A DNA stretch of 36,472 nt, taken from NCBI RefSeq assembly GCF_003205235.1, contig NZ_QJSM01000023.1, forward strand, positions 1 through 36,472. The letters are read 5' to 3'. The translations under genes and the position numbers were made by a program. The notes under the pieces are model-generated. The model worked only from the letters and a program-made list of their open reading frames with translations. It had not been told where the DNA came from and made no database searches. Source of the DNA: Thermoplasma sp. Kam2015 (GTDB lineage Archaea > Thermoplasmatota > Thermoplasmata > Thermoplasmatales > Thermoplasmataceae). Of the stretch, positions 2,628-15,403 are shown in pieces (positions within the stretch are counted from its first letter, which is position 1; the number at the start of each line of letters is the position of its first letter).

Positions 2628-3500
2628 TCATCTTACAATGAAACTGATCTGACCTGCAACCGATACGTTGATCGGAGTACGCCCGATAACCTCACCGTCT
2701 GCCTCAACCAGATGACCCCGACTTTTCACGGATACGGACCTTCCCCTGAAGCTGTGTGCATAACCTCTATCGATGTAAGAGCCATCTACAAGATACCGTA
2801 GATTCATTACTGTTTTCATCTTTGAAAAAGGCGTCAACAGGTGAATATCGAGCAGGCCGTCATTTATAGCGGATTTGGGAGAAGCCATCATTCCTCCGCC
2901 GAAATACTTTCCATTGGCCAGTATAGCTTCAATGGTGGAGATCGTTTTGTCCTCCCCATCGATGCTTATGGACAGATCAAAGGGATGCATCTTCCAGATG
3001 GTTGAGAAAACTCCGACGCTGAATGATCGCCTCCCAAAATACTTATGCGAATTAACATAATCCATAACCTCTGCACCAAAACCTATCTCCAGGATATTCA
3101 GATAATATCTGCGCCTCATATCAGATAGGTTAATTTCGAATACGTCAACTGGAGAAATGTTTCCAGCTTTCATTGCAGCTATGAAATCTTCGAGGGTCCT
3201 TATTCCTATGCTTTTTCCAAAATCTGAACCCGTCCCAAGGGGTAAAACCGCCACTTTAACGTTTTTATCAACTATGCCATTGACCACCTCGTTCAAGGTA
3301 CCATCCCCACCACATGATACCACCACATCGAATTCGTCCTCTGACAATTTACTAGCGATCTCTGTGGCATGACCGGGACGTTTTGTGATCTCATAGGAGT
3401 GTTCTCCAAGATGATCGAATATGATTTTGCGATTGCTTTCCCAAGCAGTTCCAGCTCTGCCATGCCCGGCTGATGGGTTCACTATGAATAATGCTCTCAT
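2628..3500 (-). CDS. Diacylglycerol-kinase-family lipid kinase
   Basis: Predicted ATP-dependent kinase of a lipid or isoprenoid alcohol, of the DagK/YegS/BmrU family. The N-terminal half carries the nucleotide site NPSAGHGRAG (residues 8-17) and the signature GGDGTLNE (64-71), followed by the LPLGTGSDFG loop (86-95). The C-terminal half is the beta-rich substrate domain with a late EADGE segment. Its 290 residues are normal for the family. A TATA element at 3523-3531 lies 27 nt from the ATG, inside the 35-bp gap to the upstream gene, so it can be transcribed alone. The neighbouring AGPS-like and glycerol-3-phosphate dehydrogenase genes fit a lipid or glycerol theme. In archaea the substrate of these kinases is mostly unproven. 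Confidence 0.85.
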   Translation of the reverse strand: MRALFIVNPSAGHGRAGTAWESNRKIIFDHLGEHSYEITKRPGHATEIASKLSEDEFDVVVSCGGDGTLNEVVNGIVDKNVKVAVLPLGTGSDFGKSIGIRTLEDFIAAMKAGNISPVDVFEINLSDMRRRYYLNILEIGFGAEVMDYVNSHKYFGRRSFSVGVFSTIWKMHPFDLSISIDGEDKTISTIEAILANGKYFGGGMMASPKSAINDGLLDIHLLTPFSKMKTVMNLRYLVDGSYIDRGYAHSFRGRSVSVKSRGHLVEADGEVIGRTPINVSVAGQISFIVR

Positions 3501-3522
3501 TGATCAAGTCATCAAAGATTTG

Positions 3523-3531
3523 CTATAAATA
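3523..3531 (-). promoter_or_regulatory. TATA element of the lipid kinase gene
   Basis: On the minus strand the stretch reads atttatagc and is centred 27 nt before the ATG at 3500. This predicts a leaderless message and supports that start. Confidence 0.55.
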
Positions 3532-3535
3532 ACTT

Positions 3536-5089
3536 TCATTTTATAATTTGAGGATTCAGCATGTTGTCTGGATCAAGGAAATGTTTTAGCTGGCTCATCA
3601 GCTCGAATGCAGACCCCTTATACGCTGGAAGCAGATCGCTTAGATATTGGCCGATTCCATGATGATGCGATATGGATCCGCCAGATGCCAGTATAGCATT
3701 CAGAATTGCACCCCTTAACGATCTCAACACATCAGCCTTGTTCTTTCTGGAGTAGAAAAGGAAGGTGAAGTACAGCGCAGTTCCAGATATATACTCATGC
3801 GAGGCATGGCACATTATGATGGAAGGTATCTTCAGCCTATCAGATTCATTTCTGAATGCGGATACAACTGCAGAATAAAGATCTTGTGCCTTTGACCAGA
3901 GAACGGATGTCTCTATAGTATCAGCTATTATGCCATGCCTGATCAGTTCATTGTAAAGATACGGTCTATCGAACCTAGTCCTAGACCACATTTTGGCAGG
4001 AGCAGGTCCAAGTCCTACTCCTCCCTTGATATCTATCTTACTATCGTCCATAACTACGAGTATAGATCCGCTGTCATGAACGCCTCTGTATCTCAGATAT
4101 GATCGGAAGAGTCTGTATGCGGCGGAATCGCCCGCCGCAAGGAGAGACAGCGACGTTTCCTGATCGTCCGATAGCCTGGCCACCATTCTGGATCTTCCAG
4201 ATGTAAATTCATTTCTCAGCACCTCGAGACCTTCAGAAAAATTCCTGAACATATACGCTTTATAATAATAACGATCCGGCACCCTTCTGACCTTCAGCCA
4301 GGCCCTTGTTATGATTCCGAACGTACCTTCGCTGCCGATTCCTATATCCGCAACCCTGAAAAACGCAGATTCGGCTGGTACGACATGATCCGTGAACGTA
4401 CCTCGTGGCGATATCATTTTTATGCCCAGAACCATGTCTCTTACCTTGCCGTATCTATTTGACTCCTGCCCCGCCGCATTGGTTGCGATCCATCCTCCAA
4501 GCGTGGAGAACTGGAATGATTCTGGAAAATTTCCTAGCGTAAGTCCACGCTCGTTGAGCCTCCTTTCAATATCTGGTCCCAGAAGGCCGGATCCTGCTTC
4601 AAGAACCATTGATCTTTCATCCAGATTGAAGACGTTCAAATTTCTGGTGTCCAGGCTTACAGCATAGCCGTGCTGACTGTTCGGCCTCAGGCCACCGGTG
4701 ACCGATGTTCCGCCACCATAAGATATTATGATTCCCTTTCCTCTGAGCTTATTCATTATGCATTCAATCTCGTCTTCCTCAGGATATATTACTGCGTCGA
4801 CTATTGGAACATCAACGCCATCCATTATTGATGCATATTCCATTGCACTTTTTCCCATGGAATGCAGTATCCTATCCTCTGACCTGAATGAAATTCTGTC
4901 CGGAGGTAGACATTGTGAGATCAATGATAGAAGCTCCGAATTCTCCCCCAAATTTTTCCTTCTGTAGATCCCGTCCCATTCTATTACGTCACTGACTCCG
5001 AATCTATTCTTTATATAATCTAGTATGATCTTATCCGATGCAGATTCACGATCTTCCCTGCCCCAGATCATCCGTGCTCCATTATCCAT
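3536..5089 (-). CDS. FAD-linked oxidase, alkyl-DHAP-synthase-like
   Basis: Flavoprotein of the vanillyl-alcohol-oxidase / GlcD superfamily, and within it closest by motif to alkyldihydroxyacetonephosphate synthase. Visible are the FAD diphosphate loop GGGTSVTGG (125-133), the second FAD motif GSEGTFGIIT (252-261), a late CHASHEYISGTALYFTF block and the C-terminal HHHGIG (475-480). The His cluster and the CHxSHxYxxGxxLYFTF-type block are typical of AGPS and differ from plain lactate or glycolate oxidases. The length of 517 residues is normal. The start is supported by GGAGGTCATC nine bases upstream of the ATG. Known archaeal ether lipids are built on glycerol-1-phosphate without AGPS, so a related but different reaction, such as 2-hydroxyacid oxidation, is possible. 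Confidence 0.8.
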   Translation of the reverse strand: MDNGARMIWGREDRESASDKIILDYIKNRFGVSDVIEWDGIYRRKNLGENSELLSLISQCLPPDRISFRSEDRILHSMGKSAMEYASIMDGVDVPIVDAVIYPEEDEIECIMNKLRGKGIIISYGGGTSVTGGLRPNSQHGYAVSLDTRNLNVFNLDERSMVLEAGSGLLGPDIERRLNERGLTLGNFPESFQFSTLGGWIATNAAGQESNRYGKVRDMVLGIKMISPRGTFTDHVVPAESAFFRVADIGIGSEGTFGIITRAWLKVRRVPDRYYYKAYMFRNFSEGLEVLRNEFTSGRSRMVARLSDDQETSLSLLAAGDSAAYRLFRSYLRYRGVHDSGSILVVMDDSKIDIKGGVGLGPAPAKMWSRTRFDRPYLYNELIRHGIIADTIETSVLWSKAQDLYSAVVSAFRNESDRLKIPSIIMCHASHEYISGTALYFTFLFYSRKNKADVLRSLRGAILNAILASGGSISHHHGIGQYLSDLLPAYKGSAFELMSQLKHFLDPDNMLNPQIIK

Positions 5090-5565
5090 TTTGAGATGAC
5101 CTCCACATCCACAATATGAAACATCTCTATCCGTTATATGTCGCTTGGACCCTGTTTGGAAACCCGCTGACTGGAATATTGCCCGTGTGTTCTCTCCAGC
5201 GGATGATTGATTCTATCTTCGTCCACGGTCTCTTCATTCTTTGCAGCCACAGTGTATTCTGCGGATTATCTTCACTTCGGCCTGAGCGTTCCGTCTGCAG
5301 AGCGCTTTCATATTTTATCCTCAGGATCTTACCAAAAATATAGGACATGATCGGATAAACTTATCGCAAAGGGCCTGTACCCAGAACAGAAAGAAAAACC
5401 CATAAGACCAGTCAAATAGACGCATAATGCATCGTTCCAGCCTGATCTGATTTGCTCTTGTTCAAGATACGATCTAAACGCACTGCGAGAACTTTAAAGA
5501 TCTTTTCCACATAATGTCAAGCGCTAACTTTAAATTGATAGGTATGCTGAGTCTCCAGAAGGCCG
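5090..5565. other. Divergent intergenic region with no firm gene
   Basis: This 476-bp gap separates the minus-strand AGPS-like gene from the plus-strand GlpA-like gene. A minus-strand reading frame of 73 codons (5127-5348) is present, but its residue composition is unremarkable and no promoter is well placed. A +2 frame over its last third also stays open and ends in a plausible tail (residues QGPSDI). This could be a decayed gene with frameshifts. TATA-like stretches near 5493-5499 (ctttaaa) and 5528-5537 probably belong to the GlpA-like gene. Confidence 0.35.
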
Positions 5566-7041
5566 ATGAACAAGCAGATTCTGGAATACAGGGCTAAAGC
5601 GGTATCCATGATGAAGCAGGGCGTGGATGTGCTTATAATCGGGGGAGGGATCACCGGATCAGGTATATTCAACGCCCTCTCAAATTCAGGATTGAAAGTT
5701 GCACTTGTGGAAGCCAGAGACTTCGCTTCTGGTACAAGCAGCAGATCTTCGAAACTGATACATGGTGGCCTGAGATACATCGCAAACGGTCAGTTCTCCG
5801 TTGTGATGGATTCAGTCAGGGAAAGAGATTTTCTCATCGGACATACGGATCTCGTTGGAAGGAAAAATTTCCTGATACCAATCGATGCAAATTCCTGGTC
5901 CAGAAATACTCTGAGATTCGGATTGTGGCTTTACTCATTCTTCTCAAAGGAGATCAAGGCAAAATGGTATTCAAGAGAGGAACTCTCCGCAGAATATCCT
6001 TTCCTTGTCCATACTCCTCAGATGGGCGGCTATGTGTATGCAGAGGGTGTGGTCAACGATGCCAGACTGGTTGTGGATAACATTCTCTCTTCCATAGGAG
6101 AAAGATCATGGGCGATCAATTATGCAGAGATCCGGAGTATAAATTTCGATTGCGAACGCGCCTCATCCGCGATAGTTGTGGATAAGCTTACTGGCGACCG
6201 TTTTGAAGTACCCTTCAGGTTCCTTGTAAACTCAGCTGGACCTTGGGTTGGCGATATTTTCAGGATGATGTCGGATCACTATCCTGAACTTGAAGAGGCC
6301 GCAAAATTGATCAAGCTTAGCAAAGGCGATCACATAATAATAAAGAAAGATCTTTTCCCGGTCGATATAGCCATCGCACTCAGATCACCCATTGACGGCA
6401 GACAAGTGTTCATCATCCCAAGAGGCGATGTATCCATCATAGGTACCACGGAGAAAGAATATGACGGCGATCCAGCCATGGTTTCGCCAGAAGAGGAAGA
6501 TGTAAAGTACCTCATAGACTCTGTCAAGGGATATGTGCCAGGACTGAAAAGATCAGACGTTATCAATGCCTATTCTGGTCTTCGGCCACTGTTCGGCAAG
6601 GGAGATCCGGGAAAGATAAGCAGGGAGTATCGCATAATCAAGGCTGGAAACACAGTAAATGTTGTCGGAGGAAAGCTCACGACCTACAGAACAATAGCGA
6701 TCAAAATATCAAGGGAAATACTGAGAGAATTCGATGTTAAGGCGGAACCAGCCATCTCGCTAAAATACAGAAGACGGATAGATGATGTAAAGGACGAAAT
6801 AATAAGGCAATATGGCCAGATGGACGATGATGAGATCAGCTACGCCTATGACATTCTATACGAGGGCGCCATTCATGCCGATGACATATTGTGGAGGAGG
6901 GAGGGCCATTTCATCTTTTCAGAAGATTCCGGAAGATCAAAGATTGAGCGGTGCATAGATGTCATGAAGAGGATCAACGGAATCTCAGAAGATGAAGCAG
7001 AACGCGAAAAGATCAATTATCTCAACTTGATATACAGATAG
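5566..7041 (+). CDS. glpA: FAD-dependent glycerol-3-phosphate dehydrogenase (GlpA/GlpD family)
   Basis: Predicted to oxidise sn-glycerol-3-phosphate to dihydroxyacetone phosphate at the membrane, passing electrons to the quinone pool. The N-terminal dinucleotide fold has DVLIIGGGITGSG (21-33) with FAD glycines 26-28 and 31, then the family signature ASGTSSRSSKLIHGGLRY (54-71). A second conserved block, GGKLTTYRTI, comes late and introduces the C-terminal helical domain. The 491 residues are close to normal GlpD size. No GlpB, GlpC, glycerol kinase or facilitator gene is in the window. It is divergent from the AGPS-like gene, which would use DHAP-derived substrate if it were a true AGPS. A TATA-like ctttaaatt lies near 5528, giving a very short leader. 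Confidence 0.88.
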   Translation: MNKQILEYRAKAVSMMKQGVDVLIIGGGITGSGIFNALSNSGLKVALVEARDFASGTSSRSSKLIHGGLRYIANGQFSVVMDSVRERDFLIGHTDLVGRKNFLIPIDANSWSRNTLRFGLWLYSFFSKEIKAKWYSREELSAEYPFLVHTPQMGGYVYAEGVVNDARLVVDNILSSIGERSWAINYAEIRSINFDCERASSAIVVDKLTGDRFEVPFRFLVNSAGPWVGDIFRMMSDHYPELEEAAKLIKLSKGDHIIIKKDLFPVDIAIALRSPIDGRQVFIIPRGDVSIIGTTEKEYDGDPAMVSPEEEDVKYLIDSVKGYVPGLKRSDVINAYSGLRPLFGKGDPGKISREYRIIKAGNTVNVVGGKLTTYRTIAIKISREILREFDVKAEPAISLKYRRRIDDVKDEIIRQYGQMDDDEISYAYDILYEGAIHADDILWRREGHFIFSEDSGRSKIERCIDVMKRINGISEDEAEREKINYLNLIYR

Positions 7042-7069
7042 CGATCGATCTTCAAATCGTTTAGAAAAA

Positions 7070-7078
7070 TCTATATAG
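7070..7078 (+). promoter_or_regulatory. TATA element of the SCP2/ADH/AOR cassette
   Basis: The stretch tctatatag is centred 26 nt before the ATG at 7100, giving a leaderless first cistron. No other obvious promoter precedes the next two genes, so it may drive the whole cassette. Confidence 0.6.
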
Positions 7079-7099
7079 CAATGTACTTATATATATCGT

Positions 7100-7522
7100 A
7101 TGGCAGAAGAGATATTGTTTCCATCACAGACATGGGTGGATGAATACTGCAGAAGGCTATCGGAATCGCCTGATTATAACAAGGCAGGCAAGGGCTGGAA
7201 AGATCCCATAATGTTCACGATTTCTGATACCGGTTCATTATCAGAAAAACCAGAATTCGGATCCTTCACCCTTTATCTGAGGGATGGAAAATGCGAGAAG
7301 TGCGAAGTCATAAAGGAAGGAGAAGGATCGGCACCATTCGTGCTCACTGCAACCTATGCAAACTGGAGGAAGATCATAGATGGAAAGATAAATCCGACAC
7401 AGGCCATGCTTACCGGCCAGCTTAAGGTTAAGGGAAACATGGCTCTCATCCTGAGGTACGCATCTGCAGCCATAGCCATGGTCAAGGTGGCACAGAGCAT
7501 ACCCACCAAATACCTGGCGTGA
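7100..7522 (+). CDS. SCP2-like sterol/lipid-carrier domain protein
   Basis: Stand-alone SCP-2 domain of 140 residues, a small alpha/beta fold with a hydrophobic tunnel that binds lipids or acyl chains. Seen directly are the amphipathic N-terminal helix, a middle FTLYLRDGKCEKCEVIKEG strand pair and the late NWRKIIDGKINPTQAMLTGQLKVKGNMALILRY block. That block is the family hallmark, a strand-turn followed by the GxLKxKGNxxxAL-type helix. It is the first gene of a three-gene run. The next ATG follows its stop by four bases and the third gene overlaps the second. A lipid carrier in front of an alcohol dehydrogenase and an aldehyde oxidoreductase suggests a hydrophobic alcohol or aldehyde substrate; that link is inference. 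A cytosolic location is likely, since there is no signal peptide. Confidence 0.82.
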   Translation: MAEEILFPSQTWVDEYCRRLSESPDYNKAGKGWKDPIMFTISDTGSLSEKPEFGSFTLYLRDGKCEKCEVIKEGEGSAPFVLTATYANWRKIIDGKINPTQAMLTGQLKVKGNMALILRYASAAIAMVKVAQSIPTKYLA

Positions 7523-7526
7523 TATC

Positions 7527-8633
7527 ATGGGTATCATAACTCTGCCAAGAAAGATATATCAGCAGAGGGACATCATAGAATCTATCAGGGATAGCCTGCA
7601 GCTTAGGGAACCCGTGCTTGTTGTCACCGACAAGAACATCATGAAAATTTTCGGGGATAGAATAAGAAGATCCATGGACGGAACGAATTATCGCGTGATT
7701 GATGACGTCAGGCCGGAGCCGGAGATCACCGCGATTGAGTCAGCCTATTCAAGCCTCTCAGGATTTCAACCACGAACGATAATTGCCATTGGCGGCGGAA
7801 GCGTGATAGACTTCGCCAAGTCGCTGGATGTTAAGATATCGTACTCAGATAGAAGCATCGCGGAGATCAATCCTTTCGAGATCCTTGATCTCAAAGCTGA
7901 ACTCATAGCCGTTCCTACAACGTCTGGAACCGGGAGTGACGTCTCCTTTGGGATAGTGGTCAACGATCAGGGCAGAAAACTCGCCCTTGGAAACTTCGAT
8001 CTTGTGCCCTACATATCCATACTCGATGCTTCGCTTACACCCTCGGATCCAAACATCATAAGACCTACCGGCGTTGATGCTCTCGTTCACTCCTTTGAGG
8101 CGCTCACCGCCAATACATCAACAATATTCACCGATGCTCTAGCTGAGAAGGCCATAGAGACCATATTTGATAATATAGAAGGTTCCATGAATGGAGATGA
8201 AAGCGCACGCGATAATATGCATCTGGCCGCAACCATGGCTGGCATCGCCTTCACCAACAGCGGGACCGCTCTGGCCCATGCGTTGGGCCACAGCTTTGGA
8301 TCCACGCATCATGTTGTTCACGGTACATGCGTTGGCCTGTTCCTGCCCTACGTGATAGAATTCAATTCTACAGACGATCCGTCCAGACGCAAATATGAGA
8401 GGATTGCCAAACGCCTGGGCTACAGTGATGCTGTGTCTGCATTAAAGGATCTGTATGCGAGGATAGGACAGCCCGTCAGTGTGAGGGATCTGGGAATAGA
8501 CAGGAGGCGCTACCTGGCAAGCATCGATGAGATGGTAGAAAAGGCCCTGGCAGACAGCGAACTTGCTTTCAATCCAGTGATCGCCGGCGAGGATGACATC
8601 AGATCCATATATCTTAAGGCCTACGGTGATTGA
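7527..8633 (+). CDS. Iron-containing (group III) alcohol dehydrogenase
   Basis: NAD(P)-dependent alcohol dehydrogenase interconverting an alcohol and its aldehyde. The nucleotide loop GGGSVIDFAK (89-98) and TTSGTGSDV (131-139) are present. By the family spacing the four metal ligands fall at Asp184, His188, His251 and His265, all intact, so an active Fe2+ or Zn2+ enzyme is expected. The length of 368 residues is typical. A GTGAT ribosome-site core sits three bases before the ATG, overlapping the end of the SCP2-like gene. The position between a lipid-binding protein and an aldehyde oxidoreductase suggests the aldehyde product is handed on. It is not the glycerol-1-phosphate dehydrogenase EgsA by its motifs. 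Confidence 0.9.
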   Translation: MGIITLPRKIYQQRDIIESIRDSLQLREPVLVVTDKNIMKIFGDRIRRSMDGTNYRVIDDVRPEPEITAIESAYSSLSGFQPRTIIAIGGGSVIDFAKSLDVKISYSDRSIAEINPFEILDLKAELIAVPTTSGTGSDVSFGIVVNDQGRKLALGNFDLVPYISILDASLTPSDPNIIRPTGVDALVHSFEALTANTSTIFTDALAEKAIETIFDNIEGSMNGDESARDNMHLAATMAGIAFTNSGTALAHALGHSFGSTHHVVHGTCVGLFLPYVIEFNSTDDPSRRKYERIAKRLGYSDAVSALKDLYARIGQPVSVRDLGIDRRRYLASIDEMVEKALADSELAFNPVIAGEDDIRSIYLKAYGD

Positions 8634-8634
8634 T

Positions 8635-10398
8635 TTGCCAGGTTTCTGGAACAGGATTCTCTTCATCGATCTGACACGCGGTGATGCATGGACGGATGGA
8701 ATCCCAGAGGAAGTCTGGGAAAGATACGTAGGCGGAGTCGGTGTAGGATCATATCTCTTCACCAGATACGGCGGTAACTTCGATCCCTTTTCGGAAAAAA
8801 ATCCTCTGATAATAACGACAGGACCTCTGGTCGGGACTGCCTTTCCAAATTCCGGAAGGCATGAAGTTGTGAGCAGAAGCCCCCTGACGACGTTTCTGGG
8901 GGAATCCAATTCAGGTGGAAGATTCGGATTTGAACTCAAGAGATCCGGCTTTGATGGTATGGTGATCTCGGGAAAATCCGACGTCCCCGTTTCCATATTC
9001 ATCAATGACGGAGAATTCAGAATAGTCAGAACACCGGAACTGTGGGGACTAGATATATACGAGACCCAGAAAAAGCTGAAGAAGGATAAGAACTACTCGG
9101 TAATGTGCATAGGACCGGCAGGTGAAAACCTTGTTCTGTTCTCATCAATAATGAATGATGAGGGCCGCGCAGCGGGAAGAACAGGACTCGGCGCCGTCAT
9201 GGGTTCGAAGAAACTAAAGGCGATAGCTGTCTATGGAAGGAGGATCGTAGAGGTAAGCGACAGATTGGAATACAACCGTGTCGTAAAGGAGGCATCAAAA
9301 TCCATTATCGAATCGCCAGTAGTATCCGGCTTCAGAAGCTATGGCAGCATGATCTGGATGGATGGAGGGATCGGTTTCAACGATATTCCAGCAAATTACT
9401 TCATGGATCGAAGATTCCAGTTCGACGATCTGAGCAGTATAAAGTTTCATGAGGATTACAATGTATCCAGCTATAACTGCGCGACCTGCGTGATAGGCTG
9501 CGGAAGGACTGTGAAATACGGCGGCATCAATATAGATGGGCCGGAATATGAAACTGTTGCTGCGTTAGGCCCATTGCTGGGAAACACGAGCTTCCAGAAA
9601 ATACTAGACTGGAACCATGCCATAAACAGACTGGGCATGGACACCATCAGCACTGGCGTTATCATTTCAGCCCTGAGATATTTTGTAAAGTCAGGAGTCG
9701 TAAAGGATGAGCAGATAGAATCCTATTATTCGGACAACTTTGACAACATAGGCAGGATGATACTTGACATAGCCATGAGGAAGGGCCCTGGAAACAGGAT
9801 AGCCGATGGCCTTTACAGGTACTCCACCTCTATGGGCATAGACAGGGATCTCATAGCGACAGTGAAAGGCCTGGAGATACCACTGCACGATCCCAGAGCC
9901 TTTAAACTGCAGGGCATAGTCTACGCAACATCCAGCAGGGGCGCGGATCACATGCAGGGCGACATGTATCAGATAGACATAGGCGGAGACCATCCAGATA
10001 TAGGCATAGTCTCTGGTGACAGATTCAATGTGGACAGCGACGATCGCGTTAGAACAGTCATAAAGACCCAGGATTTCAGGCAGATATACAATTCCCTCAT
10101 AGTCTGCTATTATGCACAGCCGGATCCGTCCCTTCTTGCATCGGCCTACAGTCTTTCCACCGGGATTTCAGCCTCAATAAACGATCTCATGGATCGTGGA
10201 TCGGAGATAGTGAATTTGAAGAGGAAGATAAACGAGGATCTGGGTCTAAAACCCGAGGATGACTGGCTCCCTGCCATTGTGAGAAGACCTGTGGATGGCG
10301 AACCCCCAGAGTCAGGTATGAGCAACGAAGAGCTGATCTCAATTTTGCAGAAATATTACGCCCTTCGCGGTTGGGGCAAGTACAGGCCGCCATCATGA
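8635..10398 (+). CDS. Tungsten-dependent aldehyde:ferredoxin oxidoreductase (AOR family)
   Basis: Predicted to oxidise an aldehyde to the acid using a tungstopterin and one 4Fe-4S cluster, with ferredoxin as acceptor. With the start used here the product has 587 residues and cluster ligands Cys282, Cys285, Cys289 and Cys491, spaced as in Pyrococcus AOR. The N-terminal WNRILFIDLTRG and the NSGGRFGFELKRSGFDG block are family hallmarks. A TTG start at 8635 is preferred because GGTGAT lies four bases upstream and the product then begins right at the conserved domain; GTG at 8626 is an alternative. The ribosome site overlaps the stop of the alcohol dehydrogenase gene, so translation is coupled. 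The two pterin-binding motifs are degenerate: NRLGMD, and YNSLIVC in place of DxxGLC. Confidence 0.88.
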   Translation: MPGFWNRILFIDLTRGDAWTDGIPEEVWERYVGGVGVGSYLFTRYGGNFDPFSEKNPLIITTGPLVGTAFPNSGRHEVVSRSPLTTFLGESNSGGRFGFELKRSGFDGMVISGKSDVPVSIFINDGEFRIVRTPELWGLDIYETQKKLKKDKNYSVMCIGPAGENLVLFSSIMNDEGRAAGRTGLGAVMGSKKLKAIAVYGRRIVEVSDRLEYNRVVKEASKSIIESPVVSGFRSYGSMIWMDGGIGFNDIPANYFMDRRFQFDDLSSIKFHEDYNVSSYNCATCVIGCGRTVKYGGINIDGPEYETVAALGPLLGNTSFQKILDWNHAINRLGMDTISTGVIISALRYFVKSGVVKDEQIESYYSDNFDNIGRMILDIAMRKGPGNRIADGLYRYSTSMGIDRDLIATVKGLEIPLHDPRAFKLQGIVYATSSRGADHMQGDMYQIDIGGDHPDIGIVSGDRFNVDSDDRVRTVIKTQDFRQIYNSLIVCYYAQPDPSLLASAYSLSTGISASINDLMDRGSEIVNLKRKINEDLGLKPEDDWLPAIVRRPVDGEPPESGMSNEELISILQKYYALRGWGKYRPPS

Positions 10399-10549: not shown

Positions 10550-12574
10550 GTGAAGATCAGCGAACTGGGTTATGATCGGGCTTTCCTCCAGCTGTTCGAT
10601 GGAAATGATTTTCAGCTTTACGATCATCAGCTGATGGCGATAGAGCAGCTTAGGAAGGGAAAGAACGTCATTGTCAGTGTGCCGACGGCAGCTGGCAAGA
10701 CTCTCATTGCCTATTCGGCAATATATGAAACTTTCCAGAGAAATCTCAAATCCATATACATTGTACCGCTAAGGTCGCTGGCAATGGAAAAATATTCTGA
10801 ACTTTCCCGACTCAGAGATCTTGGCCTGAAGGTAAAGATGTCCATAGGTGATTATGACGATACACCAGACTTTATCAGAAGATACGATGCAGTCATCTTG
10901 ACATCCGAAAAGGCCGATTCGCTCATGCACCATGATCCTTCCATGCTGAACGATGTAGGCCTCATGGTGATCGATGAGATACACACCATCGGGGATGAAA
11001 GCCGCGGACCCACCCTGGAAACGGTCGCATCGGTTGCAAGATATGTCAACCCCGACATGAGGATGCTTGCACTTTCTGCAACTGTTTCCAATGCAGCTGA
11101 GATGGCAAAATGGCTCAACGCATCCCTCATAAGGAGCGACTTCAGACCCGTACCACTGAAGACGGGGATCATCTACAGGGATCAGCTCTACCTTGATGGT
11201 AAGAGAAGGTCCGGAGTCAGCGTTAACCAGATCATAAAGGAGACTGTGGAAGATCAGGGACAGGTTCTGATGTTTGTCAGCTCCAGGAAGAAGGCTGAAG
11301 ATAATGCGAGGGATCTGGCGCAGATATTCGATCCAAGCCTGAATATAAAGATAGCCTCCGACGATTCCAGCGTCTATGACGATATGCTCAATGAAATTCT
11401 ACCAAGGGGCGTGGCATTTCATCATGCAGGACTCAGCAACGACCAGCGTACCTTCATAGAGAAGGAATTCAGATCCAGACGCATAAAGGTGATAGTGGCC
11501 ACTCCTACGCTGGCCGCAGGCGTTAACCTTCCGGCACGCCTCGTCATAGTCAGGGACATAACCAGATGGGGATACGACGGCATCTCGTATCTCACGAATA
11601 TGGAGATAAAGCAGATGATTGGAAGGGCCGGAAGGCCTGGATACGACAGCTTCGGCGTTGGCCTCATATATGTCTCCTCGCCGTCCAGCTATGAGGCCGC
11701 AAAGGAATACCTCTCAACCGATCCTGAACCCGTGATCTCGTACCTTGGAAATGACGCGAAGGTAAGATTCAATGCCCTGGCGACCATATCGATGGGTCTC
11801 GCAAGATCACCCGAAGACATAATGAAATTCTATGAGACCACCTTCTATTTTTCACAGAACGGCAAAAACATGCTCGAAGAGAAGATCAATGCCTCACTGA
11901 AATTTCTCGAGAGCAACGGCTTCATAAAGCGAACACCTGAGCTGAAGACCACCCAGCTGGGAAAGATCACGAGCGATCTTTACATAGATCCAGAAAGCGC
12001 ACTGAGACTTGTCGATTTCTTCAGCGGTCCCTCGGACATAGAACATGCGCTGTATCACATCTCGATCTGCAGAGAGATGATACCGTTCAACATCAAAGAC
12101 GATTTTTCCGCTATGGAGTTTCTGGATGATATAGGTATGATCGACGGCGATATAGATGCAGCCAAGACTGCCATAGTGTTGAGGGACTGGATCAATGAGG
12201 CGTCCTACAGGCTCCTCTATGATCGTTATGGAATAGCTCCTGGAGACGTGCAGGCAAGGATTTCAATGGCTGACTGGCTCTCCTATTCACTTGCAAAACT
12301 ATCCTCCATATACAAGCCAGAGGTTCGCAGAATGCTGGAGATACTCAATCTGCGTTTAAAGGAGGGCATCAGGGAGGATATTCTGGATCTGGTGCTCATA
12401 CCAGGTGTTGGACGCGTGAGGGCCAGGAGACTGTACGATGCCGGTCTGAGAAGCATAGCAGACGTTGCAAGCGCTACGCCGGAGAGGATAAGATCCATCT
12501 ACGGATTCTCAGATACGCTGGCAAATTCCGTGATAAGGAGGGCGAGATCCATTGCCTCCAAAGAAGTTCGTTAA
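10550..12574 (+). CDS. hel308: Hel308 (Ski2-like) ATP-dependent DNA helicase
   Basis: Superfamily 2 3'-5' helicase thought to act on stalled replication forks and in recombination. Domains in order are RecA1 with Walker A PTAAGKT (45-51) and DEIH (142-145), RecA2 with HHAGL and the QMIGRAGRPG motif VI, a winged-helix and ratchet region, and a C-terminal helix-hairpin-helix (LIPGVGRVRARRLYDAG) ending in a basic RRAR tail. The length of 674 residues is slightly short of the usual 700-720. The GTG start lies 24 nt from a TATA element and is probably leaderless. Its 3' end overlaps the trm5 start by 23 bases, with the trm5 ribosome site inside hel308, so the two are translationally linked. Confidence 0.93.
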   Translation: MKISELGYDRAFLQLFDGNDFQLYDHQLMAIEQLRKGKNVIVSVPTAAGKTLIAYSAIYETFQRNLKSIYIVPLRSLAMEKYSELSRLRDLGLKVKMSIGDYDDTPDFIRRYDAVILTSEKADSLMHHDPSMLNDVGLMVIDEIHTIGDESRGPTLETVASVARYVNPDMRMLALSATVSNAAEMAKWLNASLIRSDFRPVPLKTGIIYRDQLYLDGKRRSGVSVNQIIKETVEDQGQVLMFVSSRKKAEDNARDLAQIFDPSLNIKIASDDSSVYDDMLNEILPRGVAFHHAGLSNDQRTFIEKEFRSRRIKVIVATPTLAAGVNLPARLVIVRDITRWGYDGISYLTNMEIKQMIGRAGRPGYDSFGVGLIYVSSPSSYEAAKEYLSTDPEPVISYLGNDAKVRFNALATISMGLARSPEDIMKFYETTFYFSQNGKNMLEEKINASLKFLESNGFIKRTPELKTTQLGKITSDLYIDPESALRLVDFFSGPSDIEHALYHISICREMIPFNIKDDFSAMEFLDDIGMIDGDIDAAKTAIVLRDWINEASYRLLYDRYGIAPGDVQARISMADWLSYSLAKLSSIYKPEVRRMLEILNLRLKEGIREDILDLVLIPGVGRVRARRLYDAGLRSIADVASATPERIRSIYGFSDTLANSVIRRARSIASKEVR

Positions 12575-13532
12575 GGCCCCCAAGAGTATGGCTGAAAAGA
12601 TAATAACAGATCTCAGGGCGAAGGGCATTTTTGATCGGAATTTTTCCGTGATCAGGAATGGAGAATTCATCTACATCCCAGTGAGGGACGATTATTCTGG
12701 GGAACACATCGTCATCGATGCTGAGCCAAGGATCACGGTACCTTCGGCATCTGGTTCCTTCGATACGATCGGGAACATCGTCATAATGAAGCGATATGAC
12801 GAAGCGCTGGCGCATGATATTCTGAAGACGCATAGAAATATTAGGAGCGTGTTCTACGATGATGGAGTCGCCGGATCCGAGAGGAAGAGGAAGCTTCGGC
12901 TCATAGCAGGCGATGGAAACACGGTGACCGAATACAGAGAAAATGGATGCAGCTTCATCATCGATATATCAAAAGCCTATTTCTCACCGAGACTAGCCAC
13001 TGAAAGGCGCAGGCTCATAGATCAGGTTTCCGATGGCGAATTCATATTTGATATGTTCGCGGGCGTTGGGCCAATAAGCATAGAGATTGCCAGATACCAC
13101 AGAGTCAGGATAATAGCCTCCGATATAAACTGCGAGGCCATAAATATGCTGCAGCAGAACATGACCAGAAATGCGCTTCGCGGAGTTATAGAACCTGTAT
13201 GTGCCGATGCAAGATCGGTGGCCAGTGAAATATCTGAGGCCGATCGAGTCATCATGAACAATCCCACAGCATCATTCTCATTTCTGCCTGATGCATTGAA
13301 AACTGTAAGAGTAGGTGGTACAGTTAATTATTACGAATTCCTGGATCGATCAGGGCTTGAGTCGCGCCTTGTTGACCTTAAGTCGGTTGGTCTCGAACCA
13401 GTGGATATTCACCGTGTGCACTCATATTCAAAGACCATATCGCTTTACTCCATGACGTTGAAGAAAGGCATGCGAGGAACAGATCATCTTGATACTGTAT
13501 CTAAATCCGATGAAAGACATTCCGATATATAG
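12552..13532 (+). CDS. trm5: tRNA (guanine37-N1)-methyltransferase, Trm5 family
   Basis: SAM-dependent methylation of G37 in tRNA, which prevents +1 frameshifting. The archaeal Trm5 plan is clear: N-terminal recognition part, YFSPRLATERRR (143-154), SAM motif DMFAGVGP (167-174), acidic motif ASDIN (189-193) and the NxP-type catalytic loop NNPTASFSFLP (236-246). The last differs a little from the usual NLPxxAxEFL form. The TTG start at 12552 is chosen because GGAGGG (12537-12542) lies nine bases upstream, inside hel308; an ATG at 12588 would remove a lysine-rich N-terminus. The product has 326 residues. The final stretch after the SLYSMTLKK strand looks like a short unstructured tail. Confidence 0.88.
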   Translation: MPPKKFVKAPKSMAEKIITDLRAKGIFDRNFSVIRNGEFIYIPVRDDYSGEHIVIDAEPRITVPSASGSFDTIGNIVIMKRYDEALAHDILKTHRNIRSVFYDDGVAGSERKRKLRLIAGDGNTVTEYRENGCSFIIDISKAYFSPRLATERRRLIDQVSDGEFIFDMFAGVGPISIEIARYHRVRIIASDINCEAINMLQQNMTRNALRGVIEPVCADARSVASEISEADRVIMNNPTASFSFLPDALKTVRVGGTVNYYEFLDRSGLESRLVDLKSVGLEPVDIHRVHSYSKTISLYSMTLKKGMRGTDHLDTVSKSDERHSDI

Positions 13533-13777
13533 GCCGTTGATCACTAAATTCCTGATGAAATCATACTAGTTTAAGTTCGTTGAATATTAGTATTGGAGTT
13601 TTTCACAGAAAGATTTGAAAATCCTCAAAATCATGTAATTCAAGGATGTGAAATTTTATTATACATCCAGACTAAAATTCCATATGCATCCAAATATATC
13701 TGAGATGCAAGCCGCATGATCGATTGTCCGGTCAGTGTGCAGAAAACATATTTATAGGGGATATCACTCTCTTGTCC
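13533..13777. other. Intergenic, AT-rich, no recognised gene
   Basis: This stretch follows trm5. It holds one simple inverted repeat (GGATGT at 13644-13649 and ACATCC at 13663-13668) with a 13-base AT loop, which may be the trm5 terminator. Its 3' part contains a TATA-like tttata near 13751 for the small acidic ORF. Confidence 0.4.
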
Positions 13778-13784
13778 GGAGGTG
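13778..13784 (+). promoter_or_regulatory. Full-strength ribosome binding site GGAGGTG
   Basis: Seven bases fully complementary to the 16S 3' end, six bases before a TTG. This is the strongest such site noticed in the window. It decides the start of the 24-codon acidic ORF. Confidence 0.6.
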
Positions 13785-13790
13785 GAATGT

Positions 13791-13865
13791 TTGGTCTTCA
13801 AGAAGATGGATTACGATGATGATTTCGATGACGAAGATGAAGATGAAGACGACGATGATTTTTAA
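13791..13865 (+). CDS. Tiny acidic protein (24 aa)
   Basis: Not a family I recognise. The frame starts at TTG six bases after GGAGGTG and encodes a short basic-hydrophobic head (MVFKKMDY) followed by a run made almost only of Asp and Glu with two Phe, ending in Phe. The stop at 13863-13865 is directly followed by a perfect hairpin. A TATA-like tttata lies near 13751. The ribosome site, spacing, terminator-like hairpin and skewed composition together argue for translation. Possible roles such as nucleic-acid mimic or cation buffer are guesses. Against it are the small size and the low-complexity GAT/GAA repeat, which can arise by slippage. Confidence 0.5.
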   Translation: MVFKKMDYDDDFDDEDEDEDDDDF

Positions 13866-13882
13866 GTTGATACGATCAACTT
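13864..13882 (+). terminator. Perfect hairpin at the stop of the acidic ORF
   Basis: AAGTTGAT (13864-13871), a three-base loop and ATCAACTT (13875-13882) form an uninterrupted 8-bp stem starting inside the stop codon. Few T residues follow, so it may act as an RNA end-stabiliser rather than a classical terminator. Confidence 0.45.
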
Positions 13883-13883
13883 T

Positions 13884-13929
13884 GGGGAGCCTCAATTTAA
13901 AGATGTTATTAGAATTTTGCATGCTCCCC
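13884..13929 (+). other. GGGGAGC / GCTCCCC stem with a 32-base AT-rich loop
   Basis: A 7-bp GC-rich stem (13884-13890 with 13923-13929) closes an AT-rich loop and directly follows the smaller hairpin. It could be part of the same 3' UTR or a small structured RNA. It is not a tRNA or a recognised C/D box RNA. Confidence 0.3.
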
Positions 13930-14064
13930 TTTAATCAGCTCTATCATTCCATGTCGCACCGCTCATGATGCAAAGATTTGTCGTTCTATAGAGACAGTAT
14001 ATTCTAATCAAATAATGACAGAAAAATACTCGAAATATCAGAACTTTCTGCGGAATTCAACAAA

Positions 14065-14073
14065 TCTATATAT
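14065..14073 (+). promoter_or_regulatory. TATA element of the CoADR-like / lhr operon
   Basis: The stretch tctatatat is centred 26 nt before the ATG at 14095, so the first cistron is probably leaderless. Confidence 0.6.
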
Positions 14074-14094
14074 CCCATATTTCAATGTTCCCGT

Positions 14095-15402
14095 ATGGAT
14101 ATAGTTGTCATCGGTGGCGGTGCGGCAGGTATGGCAGCCGCATCAAAGGCGAAGAGAGTTAACAGAGACGCAAACGTTACCGTAATTGAATCTGGTTCAT
14201 TTGTCTCCTATGCAGAATGCGGAATACCTTATTTCCTTCAGGGTATAGTGAAGAGCCCAAATGATCTTCTCCACTATCCACCTGAGGAGTTCACCCAGAA
14301 GAGGGGAATAAAAGTGATAACGGGCAGAGTTGTAACGAAGATCGATACAGCATCATTATCGGTTCTGCTTGATAACGGTACTGCAGTGAAATTTGATAGG
14401 CTCATAATTGCCACAGGTGCAAGGCCAAGGATACCACAAGGAATTGCGACAGGCGTCCTCGGTATACGCAGCCTTGAGAGTGCCATACGTCTTAAGGAGA
14501 TCATCGACAGATCGAAAACTATAACAATAATAGGAGCAGGTGTGCTCGGCGTGGAGCTTGCCTCCACATTGACGGAAGCCGGAAAGAAGGTCAAGATCAT
14601 ATCGAAGTACGACAGGGTGATGCCTCAGCTCGATCCGGATATAGGAAAGATTCTCAACGATTATTTTGCATCGAGGGTTAGCGTTGAATTTTCATCCTCT
14701 CCTGTTGAGATAAGGCAAGATGAGGATCAGTATGCGATCAAGACGACCGTGGACGACCACCGATCAGACCTCGTCATAGCCGCAGTGGGCATAGTACCAA
14801 ATTCAAACATTGCACAGGACGCAGGCATCAAGACTGATCCGCGCGGTGCAATAATAACTGATGAACACATGGAGACTTCTACGCCTGGAATATATGCCGC
14901 TGGAGACGTGGCAACCGTTAAGAACATCATCACGGGAGAAGAGGAGATGATGCCGCTAGCACAGATAGCTAACAAGGCTGGCAGGGTCGCTGGATCCAAT
15001 GCCGCTGGTTCTGAGATGAACTTTCCCGGTGCAGTGGGTTCAACGCTGGTAAAGGTCTTCGACATGGAGGTTGGTTTCACAGGCCTTAACGAGAGGAGAG
15101 CTACTGCATCTGGCATTGAATTCGGTAAAACGTTGATAAAGGCGAAGAGCCGGGCAAATTACTATCCTGGAAAGGAGGATATCTACGTGAAGATACTCTA
15201 CAGGAATTCGGATAAGAGGATCATAGGAGGGCAGGTTCTTGGAAAGGATGGGGCAGCATGGAGGCTCAATACATTGGCCACGGCGATATTTGCCGGATTC
15301 ACTGTTGAAGATCTCTTCTATGATGATCTTGGCTATACTCCCCCCTTCGGGCCAGTATGGGATCCGCTCATCATAGCTGGAAGCGTATCGATGAGAGAAT
15401 AG
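14095..15402 (+). CDS. FAD-dependent CoA-disulfide reductase / NADH oxidase family
   Basis: Pyridine-nucleotide disulfide oxidoreductase with the single-cysteine active site of CoA-disulfide reductase and NADH oxidase. The FAD loop is IGGGAAG (6-12). The redox cysteine is Cys42 in YAECGIPYF, the NAD(P) loop is IGAGVLGVE and the second FAD site is GIYAAGDVA. The last third is the dimerisation domain with the YYPGKEDIYVKILY and GGQVLGKDGAAWR blocks. The 435 residues match the family. The likely role is thiol-redox balance or removal of oxygen species with NAD(P)H; which one cannot be told. The lhr ATG comes one base after its stop, a strongly coupled pair without obvious functional link. Confidence 0.88.
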   Translation: MDIVVIGGGAAGMAAASKAKRVNRDANVTVIESGSFVSYAECGIPYFLQGIVKSPNDLLHYPPEEFTQKRGIKVITGRVVTKIDTASLSVLLDNGTAVKFDRLIIATGARPRIPQGIATGVLGIRSLESAIRLKEIIDRSKTITIIGAGVLGVELASTLTEAGKKVKIISKYDRVMPQLDPDIGKILNDYFASRVSVEFSSSPVEIRQDEDQYAIKTTVDDHRSDLVIAAVGIVPNSNIAQDAGIKTDPRGAIITDEHMETSTPGIYAAGDVATVKNIITGEEEMMPLAQIANKAGRVAGSNAAGSEMNFPGAVGSTLVKVFDMEVGFTGLNERRATASGIEFGKTLIKAKSRANYYPGKEDIYVKILYRNSDKRIIGGQVLGKDGAAWRLNTLATAIFAGFTVEDLFYDDLGYTPPFGPVWDPLIIAGSVSMRE

Positions 15403-15403
15403 A

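Follow-up and report, generated by a model that had tools for sequence, protein, structure and literature searches.

Gene Content of the Locus

Three genes lie head-to-tail on the plus strand of the window, the whole stretch of 36,472 nucleotides from Thermoplasma sp. Kam2015 that was analysed. They encode an SCP2-like lipid carrier (7100-7522), an iron-type alcohol dehydrogenase (ADH; 7527-8633), and an aldehyde:ferredoxin oxidoreductase of the AOR family (8626-10398), the latter two predicted to convert alcohol to aldehyde and aldehyde to acid, respectively. The stop of SCP2 and the start of ADH are 4 bp apart, a TATA-like stretch is found upstream of SCP2, and the three genes form one operon of which SCP2 is the first gene. 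The earliest in-frame ATG of AOR (8593) lies within ADH. As homology begins at a GTG at 8626, and the equivalent GTG is the earliest start possible for AOR in another Thermoplasma genome (G098), AOR probably starts at 8626, with an overlap of probably 8 bp. The open reading frames of the coupled cassette claimed in a preliminary description are real, and its 4-bp gap and overlap are confirmed.

Directly upstream are a gene for a homologue of the FAD glycerol-3-phosphate dehydrogenase GlpD (5566-7041, plus strand; PF01266; best PDB matches 3da1/2rgh), predicted to oxidise the C2 hydroxyl of alkylglycerol phosphate to give alkyl-DHAP, and two genes on the minus strand. These encode a flavoenzyme of the alkyl-DHAP synthase (AGPS) family (3536-5089), which is predicted to run towards ether cleavage, and a YegS/diacylglycerol-kinase-type lipid kinase (2628-3500; PF00781, E = 5e-28; TIGR00147 above cut-off), whose predicted substrate is (alkyl)glycerol. 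Genes for the phospholipase, the TPP enzyme, and HADH, which accompany the cluster in relatives, are absent from the window, and a scan of the whole window with Rfam gave no match.

The SCP2 protein is recognised by its family profile (PF02036, E = 6e-13, above cut-off) and by PDB matches 1wfr/2cx7 (E~1e-18). Its fold is confirmed by an AF2 model (pLDDT 89), whose top Foldseek match is 2cx7 (TM 0.80, E = 1e-12); SdsA1 with 1-dodecanol is also among the fold matches. It is predicted to carry a hydrophobic ligand. The ADH (PF00465/PF25137) keeps the GGGS nucleotide motif and the Asp/His/His/His metal-ligand positions, which are conserved among 34 relatives; the ADH gene of T. acidophilum has an apparent frameshift. 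In AOR, AFOR_N and AFOR_C are both present (PF02730/PF01314, E~1e-80), together with CxxCxxxC and the fourth Cys, taken as the cluster cysteines, and with the Glu, His, and Asp that align with the cofactor site of Pyrococcus furiosus AOR; for both enzymes we assume the residue roles usual in the family. Judged by its family, AOR probably contains tungsten and depends on ferredoxin.

Conservation of the Cassette in Relatives

SCP2, ADH, and AOR are contiguous in eight genomes of two families, including Thermoplasma G098, G099, and G100 and G001, G002, G003, and G005 of the second family, f2, whose proteins are 57-76% identical to those of the window. This contiguity exceeds chance. The deeper conserved unit is the SCP2-ADH pair, adjacent and codirectional in 51 of the 57 Thermoplasmatales genomes with both genes, a count that, like the other co-occurrence counts, ignores shared ancestry; some of our scripted counts used cut-offs of our own, at least 60 bits for SCP2 and at least 140 bits for AGPS. 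Among members of the class outside the order, SCP2 adjoins ADH and/or an aldehyde dehydrogenase (ALDH) in 10 of 12 loci. AOR is no constant member of the cassette put forward at first: Thermoplasma and a single further family keep it beside ADH, and elsewhere it is relocated or missing.

At the position held by AOR in the window, most relatives have an NAD(P)-type ALDH after ADH, as in 16 of the 20 loci of family f1, where it follows immediately. In one genome (G026) ALDH adjoins the TPP gene at the place held by AOR in four AOR-bearing relatives. Because ALDH occupies the AOR position in these relatives, the two look interchangeable, and the presence of an NAD(P)-type enzyme there implies that ADH and then ALDH or AOR run in the oxidising direction, from alcohol through aldehyde to acid. 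The class-wide SCP2-ADH pairing and the exchange of AOR for ALDH support the earlier suggestion of a lipid carrier that presents a hydrophobic alcohol to ADH and an aldehyde oxidiser.

GlpD, AGPS, and the lipid kinase recur beside SCP2-ADH across Thermoplasmatales. The unit to consider is the whole block 2628-10398 and not 7100-10398, as first delimited. In 29 genomes GlpD and AGPS are adjacent and codirectional, and the kinase neighbours AGPS in most loci of the order. In another order of the class the kinase comes after AGPS-GlpD, and the three genes are contiguous in 5 of 7 loci of family f7, which lies in the class but outside the order. Order-wide linked genes also include a TPP decarboxylase, a 2-hydroxyacid dehydrogenase, and a phospholipase-C-like protein. 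One locus is near-complete (L115: AOR, TPP, HADH, AGPS, the kinase, ADH, SCP2, and GlpD), and near-complete single loci are found also at L085, L086, and L099. A P450 was considered as a general 2-hydroxylase partner; it occurs in 37 of 117 genomes and was rejected as a necessary part, since it is missing from Thermoplasma.

The AGPS Homologue

AGPS is known as an enzyme of human ether-lipid synthesis. The top PDB matches of the Thermoplasma homologue are 2uuu (E = 2.6e-68) and 4bby (E = 1.9e-54), the next families following at 2.7e-18; by sequence comparison the protein clearly belongs with AGPS rather than with the remaining FAD-oxidase_C enzymes. In the Dictyostelium numbering, it keeps Arg352, Tyr508, and the HHH motif, and among Thermoplasmatales homologues Arg352 is found in 50/50, Tyr508 in 48/50, and the third His of HHH in 48/50. 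Arg447 is replaced by Tyr in the window. This residue, one of three catalytically important in AGPS (PMC3509576), is lost in all Thermoplasmatales homologues (0/50), whereas the actinobacterial ones keep it (49/49). It is not a clean marker of a catabolic AGPS, as f7 relatives with the GlpD-kinase context keep Arg.

An acyltransferase of the PlsC/GNPAT type (PF01553) was found in 0 of 117 Thermoplasmatales genomes. There is therefore no obvious source of acyl-DHAP, and ether-lipid synthesis by AGPS is improbable in this order. In 46 of 49 actinobacterial loci AGPS has neighbouring genes for a fatty-acyl reductase, an acyltransferase, or an SDR; no neighbours of this kind occur at Thermoplasmatales loci. 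A biosynthetic reading, in which AOR would reduce acids to aldehydes and ADH aldehydes to alcohols from which AGPS would build alkyl ethers, as in peroxisomes and actinobacteria, could appeal to the reversibility in principle of AOR, to the synthesis after which AGPS is named, and to these actinobacterial neighbours, but it is very improbable and was rejected, chiefly because PF01553 is missing and ALDH replaces AOR; that GlpD is a dehydrogenase and the Arg447 contrast also count against it.

A Proposed Route for Ether-Lipid Breakdown

Belief and doubt are about evenly balanced for the reading in which the cluster as a whole breaks down glycerol ether (alkyl) lipids and SCP2-ADH-AOR supplies its final, alcohol-oxidising part. 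A link to ether-lipid breakdown had been raised at the outset as a possibility, and support for it comes from the AGPS-family enzyme, GlpD, and the lipid kinase encoded next door. From the observed gene content, contiguity, co-occurrence, family assignments, and most active-site residues, the following substrates and order of steps may be inferred. The head group would be removed by the surface phospholipase-C-like enzyme encoded in the clusters of some relatives, and the alkylglycerol would be phosphorylated by the YegS-type kinase. Its free C2 hydroxyl would then be oxidised by the GlpD homologue to give alkyl-DHAP, a step that would also do away with the differing stereochemistry of archaeal G1P and bacterial G3P. 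The AGPS homologue would exchange its flavin adduct with water in place of an alcohol, yielding DHAP together with an alcohol that is either long-chain or isoprenoid; we know of no report of AGPS running as such a reverse hydrolysis. The released alcohol would be held by SCP2 for oxidation to the aldehyde by ADH, from which the acid would be produced by AOR here and by ALDH in most of the relatives.

The acid may be shortened by acyl-CoA dehydrogenases, which are present in the cluster-bearing families f1, f2, and f5 and absent from f3, f4, and f6. For beta-methyl chains, shortening could proceed via the linked pair of 2-hydroxyacid dehydrogenase and TPP decarboxylase. AGPS chemistry has no access to an sn-2 ether; a true archaeal diether therefore needs another enzyme. 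A bolder version, which we hold only tentatively and think rather doubtful, is that Thermoplasmata possess a dedicated degradation of archaeal isoprenoid ether lipids, with the AGPS-family enzyme as an oxygen-independent ether hydrolase and a phytanyl-type alcohol passing via SCP2 to ADH and AOR or ALDH and on to alpha-oxidation.

The oxidative genes could instead serve a general oxidation of long-chain or isoprenoid alcohols (free fatty alcohols, phytol, geranylgeraniol, wax esters), next to a separate glycerol-phosphate block. SCP2 is found in 64 genomes, 13 of which (including G098 and G101) have no AGPS, so ether cleavage is not required for the oxidation module to work, and in class-level relatives the SCP2-ADH and AGPS-GlpD-kinase loci occupy separate sites. 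However, of the 51 genomes that have AGPS as well as SCP2, 34 carry the two no more than 10 kb apart, and they do so in several arrangements, which makes unrelated functions unlikely; we regard this alternative as possible, with the weight of belief against it. More improbable still is a short-chain metabolism, in which ADH and AOR or ALDH would act on aldehydes derived from 2-oxoacids (Ehrlich-type, through the TPP decarboxylase) or on glyceraldehyde, SCP2 being structural or unrelated. The TPP decarboxylase has benzoylformate decarboxylase as its top match and adjoins AOR or ALDH in family f5, and the closest solved structures of the ADH are general archaeal ADHs, but this leaves unexplained both SCP2 in its 64 genomes and the AGPS, kinase, and phospholipase-like genes at the same loci.

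Comparison with Known Systems

The ether-lipid catabolic reading shares with peroxisomal ether-lipid synthesis (AGPS/ADPS and acyl/alkyl-DHAP reductase) the AGPS fold family, with Arg352, Tyr508, and HHH, and a partner that converts alkyl-DHAP and alkylglycerol phosphate into each other. In the Thermoplasma cluster, however, this partner is an FAD dehydrogenase, the acyltransferase is absent, Arg447 is lost, and alcohol-oxidising enzymes stand in place of alcohol-making ones, so the predicted direction is the reverse. The AGMO pathway likewise breaks the alkylglycerol ether, and its product aldehyde is oxidised to the acid by an aldehyde dehydrogenase; AGMO, described as the sole enzyme known to cleave alkylglycerol ethers (PMC7911779), is by contrast an oxygenase. 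Peroxisomal alpha-oxidation of phytanate (PhyH, HACL1, ALDH, SCP2) likewise combines SCP2, an aldehyde-yielding TPP enzyme, and ALDH, whereas the TPP enzyme here resembles benzoylformate decarboxylase and not an oxalyl-CoA decarboxylase-like enzyme, and no hydroxylase was identified.

AOR is homologous over its full length to that of P. furiosus (PDB 1aor, E = 7e-99), with cofactor and cluster residues in common, but in Thermoplasma it stands in an operon with SCP2 and the iron-type ADH, and ALDH replaces it in relatives. An AGPS-family gene is also shared with actinobacterial AGPS operons and with Rv2249c-Rv2252 of Mycobacterium tuberculosis, where Rv2251 is presumably AGPS-like. The M. tuberculosis neighbours are Rv2249c (glpD1), Rv2251 (a flavoprotein), and Rv2252 (diacylglycerol kinase) (PMC4564863). 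A GlpD/kinase context shared with actinobacterial homologues was not borne out (1 of 49 loci, with a weak GlpD match), the neighbours there being mostly those described above.

The open-access literature searched yielded no account of enzymes for the catabolism of archaeal ether lipids, nor of an SCP2-ADH-AOR/AGPS cluster. Archaeal lipids owe their great persistence to ether bonds and serve as geological biomarkers. To our knowledge, no enzymatic route by which archaea dismantle them has been described, and the pattern across relatives suggests that ether lipids are taken apart by a pathway not yet described. With this gene set, including a possible oxygen-free alkyl ether cleaver, in cultivable Thermoplasmatales, the question becomes directly testable. 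If the proposal is true, the AGPS family would gain a catabolic branch.

The Three Genes in the Window

The preliminary description placed SCP2, Fe-alcohol dehydrogenase (ADH), and AOR genes side by side, and this contiguity is confirmed at 7100-10398 of the window, where the genes occupy 7100-7522, 7527-8633, and 8626-10398 on the forward strand. AOR most likely starts at GTG 8626: the homology sets in at this codon, and another Thermoplasma genome, G098, offers no earlier start. In ADH and AOR, sequence comparison finds every catalytic and cluster residue kept. The source genome, a Thermoplasma, measures 1.79 Mb; a Thermoplasma sp. KMA_Bin19 record shares 93% identity with one protein of the window. 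Genes for Hel308, a Trm5-like protein, a CoA-disulfide-reductase-like protein, and Lhr helicase follow 3′ of the cassette (10550-18088), in an order shared with G098 and, within reach of its locus, with the related genome G099. The cassette therefore lies in a conserved chromosomal frame.

Conservation of the SCP2-ADH Unit

The conservation survey searched 117 genomes of the order. The contiguous trio occurs in 4 Thermoplasma genomes and 4 of family f2. SCP2 and ADH lie within 300 bp on the same strand in 51 of the 57 genomes holding both, by our own cut-offs. Co-occurrence p-values throughout the survey take no account of phylogeny. Family f5 keeps the pair (SCP2 64-70% and ADH 52-60% identical), and its AOR orthologue adjoins a TPP-decarboxylase gene in 4 genomes, lies elsewhere in 1, and was otherwise not found. 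Divergent SCP2 (~35%) and ADH (~36%) are paired once more in f1, the home family, and beyond the order, within the class, SCP2 adjoins ADH and/or aldehyde dehydrogenase (ALDH) in 10 of 12 loci examined. Since this pairing spans order and class while AOR is relocated or missing outside Thermoplasma and f2, it is SCP2-ADH rather than the trio that forms the old unit; of the single coupled three-gene cassette proposed earlier, the first two genes stand and AOR as a fixed member does not.

The SCP2 protein has a predicted structure (pLDDT 89) whose best match is Thermus SCP2 2cx7 (TM 0.80). Weaker matches are to further SCP2 proteins and to the alkylsulfatase SdsA1, for which one entry, 2cfz, includes 1-dodecanol. 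SCP2 would plausibly carry a water-insoluble alcohol or aldehyde between the enzymes. A second SCP2 paralogue, ~50% identical, lies near a phospholipase-C-like gene in one f5 locus (L115:1995-2417), and similar paralogues are present in further f5 genomes.

Predicted Oxidation of the Aldehyde

The gene right after ADH encodes a ~498-residue ALDH in 16 of 20 f1 loci (PF00171, E=4e-156 in the Thermoplasma genome G101). In G026, an f5 genome without an AOR orthologue, ALDH adjoins the TPP gene, in the position of AOR in G028, G031, G032, and G038. Two unrelated aldehyde oxidisers therefore fill one slot, which supports aldehyde-to-acid conversion as its putative step. Non-acylating NAD(P)-dependent ALDHs work in the oxidising direction, and their presence in the same slot argues against AOR acting here as an acid reductase.

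The Larger Cluster

A FAD glycerol-3-phosphate dehydrogenase homologue (GlpD, 5566-7041) immediately precedes SCP2. Divergent from GlpD, on its far side, are a FAD_binding_4/FAD-oxidase_C protein (3536-5089) and a YegS-type lipid kinase (2628-3500). The FAD protein is assigned by sequence to the alkyl-DHAP synthase (AGPS) family, because its matches to the Dictyostelium and guinea pig enzymes (E=2.6e-68 and 1.9e-54) far exceed the next best, D-lactate-dehydrogenase-like oxidoreductases (~1e-18). It retains Arg352, Tyr508, and the HHH motif, with Tyr at Arg447.

AGPS is found in 57 of the 117 genomes. Of the 51 that also have SCP2, 34 place the two genes no more than 10 kb apart, and AGPS has GlpD as its immediate same-strand neighbour in 29 genomes. 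One stretch of G032 (L115) unites AOR, TPP enzyme, 2-hydroxyacid dehydrogenase, AGPS, lipid kinase, ADH, SCP2, and GlpD, with a PF04185 phospholipase-C-like protein close by; two further loci (L086 and L099) carry, in a row, phospholipase-like gene, kinase, SCP2, ADH, ALDH, AGPS, and GlpD. A PF04185 relative at L087 shows, by eye, hydrophobic sequence at the N-terminus and in a C-terminal segment, which suggests surface anchoring. In another order of the class (family f7), AGPS, GlpD, and kinase are contiguous in 5 of 7 loci.

At 11 other Thermoplasmatota loci (L253-L263), an AGPS-like gene lies ~1.5 kb from a GlpA-like dehydrogenase. The sole annotated one (L253:7696-15173) encodes a CCG iron-sulphur protein, a BFD/BON-domain GlpA-like dehydrogenase, DUF1667, and glycerol kinase; such loci are possibly a variant operon nearer to glycerol-phosphate oxidation.

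Direction of the AGPS Reaction

AGPS catalysis proceeds by way of a flavin-DHAP adduct, on which one C1 oxygen substituent is swapped for another (PMC3509576). With water in place of alcohol, a homologue would convert alkyl-DHAP to DHAP and an alcohol, which the neighbouring ADH and then ALDH/AOR would take on.

In a scan of genome contigs, 46 of 49 actinobacterial AGPS loci have a fatty-acyl reductase, PlsC-type acyltransferase, or SDR neighbour, whereas none was found at the archaeal AGPS loci examined; judged by these neighbours, the actinobacterial setting is biosynthetic. Actinobacterial loci in L194-L245, L197 and L211 among them, place AGPS-family genes beside a fatty-acyl reductase (NAD_binding_4, Sterile, and HAD domains), and many have a PlsC-like acyltransferase or SDR alongside; they are candidate operons for ether-lipid synthesis in bacteria. 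All 117 Thermoplasmatales genomes lack PF01553 acyltransferases (control positive in 10 of 14 genomes), so AGPS there would have no evident acyl-DHAP to work on. Families with the cluster possess acyl-CoA dehydrogenases, and those without it have none.

The catalytically important Arg447 (Dictyostelium numbering) is kept in 49/49 actinobacterial proteins and lost in 50/50 from Thermoplasmatales, which have Tyr, Gly, Ala, or Ser. All f7 homologues, from class-level relatives outside the order, retain Arg although they stand in a GlpD-kinase context, so its loss is only a hint of changed chemistry.

Substrate and Loss within Thermoplasma

To our knowledge, the sn-2 ether of a true archaeal diether lies beyond the reach of AGPS chemistry, so the substrate would be monoalkyl lipids, or a further enzyme is missing from the picture. 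Archaeal isoprenoid ethers are an unlikely main substrate. Alpha-oxidation of a beta-methyl acid would be a fitting role for the TPP enzyme and 2-hydroxyacid dehydrogenase; a hydroxylase for it was not found, and P450s are not general among the 117 genomes.

In G098 the kinase-AGPS-GlpD block is missing between an iminopeptidase gene and SCP2. The ADH of this genome (L104:8427-9545) is broken in two by the net loss of 1 base, possibly a pseudogene accompanying pathway decay. AGPS is also missing from G099 and G101. These losses mean either that some members of the genus are losing the pathway or that SCP2-ADH-AOR/ALDH serves a second purpose. Breakdown of ether lipids, with all substrates those we infer, has about an even chance of being the function of the cluster; whatever the setting, the trio probably oxidises a hydrophobic alcohol.
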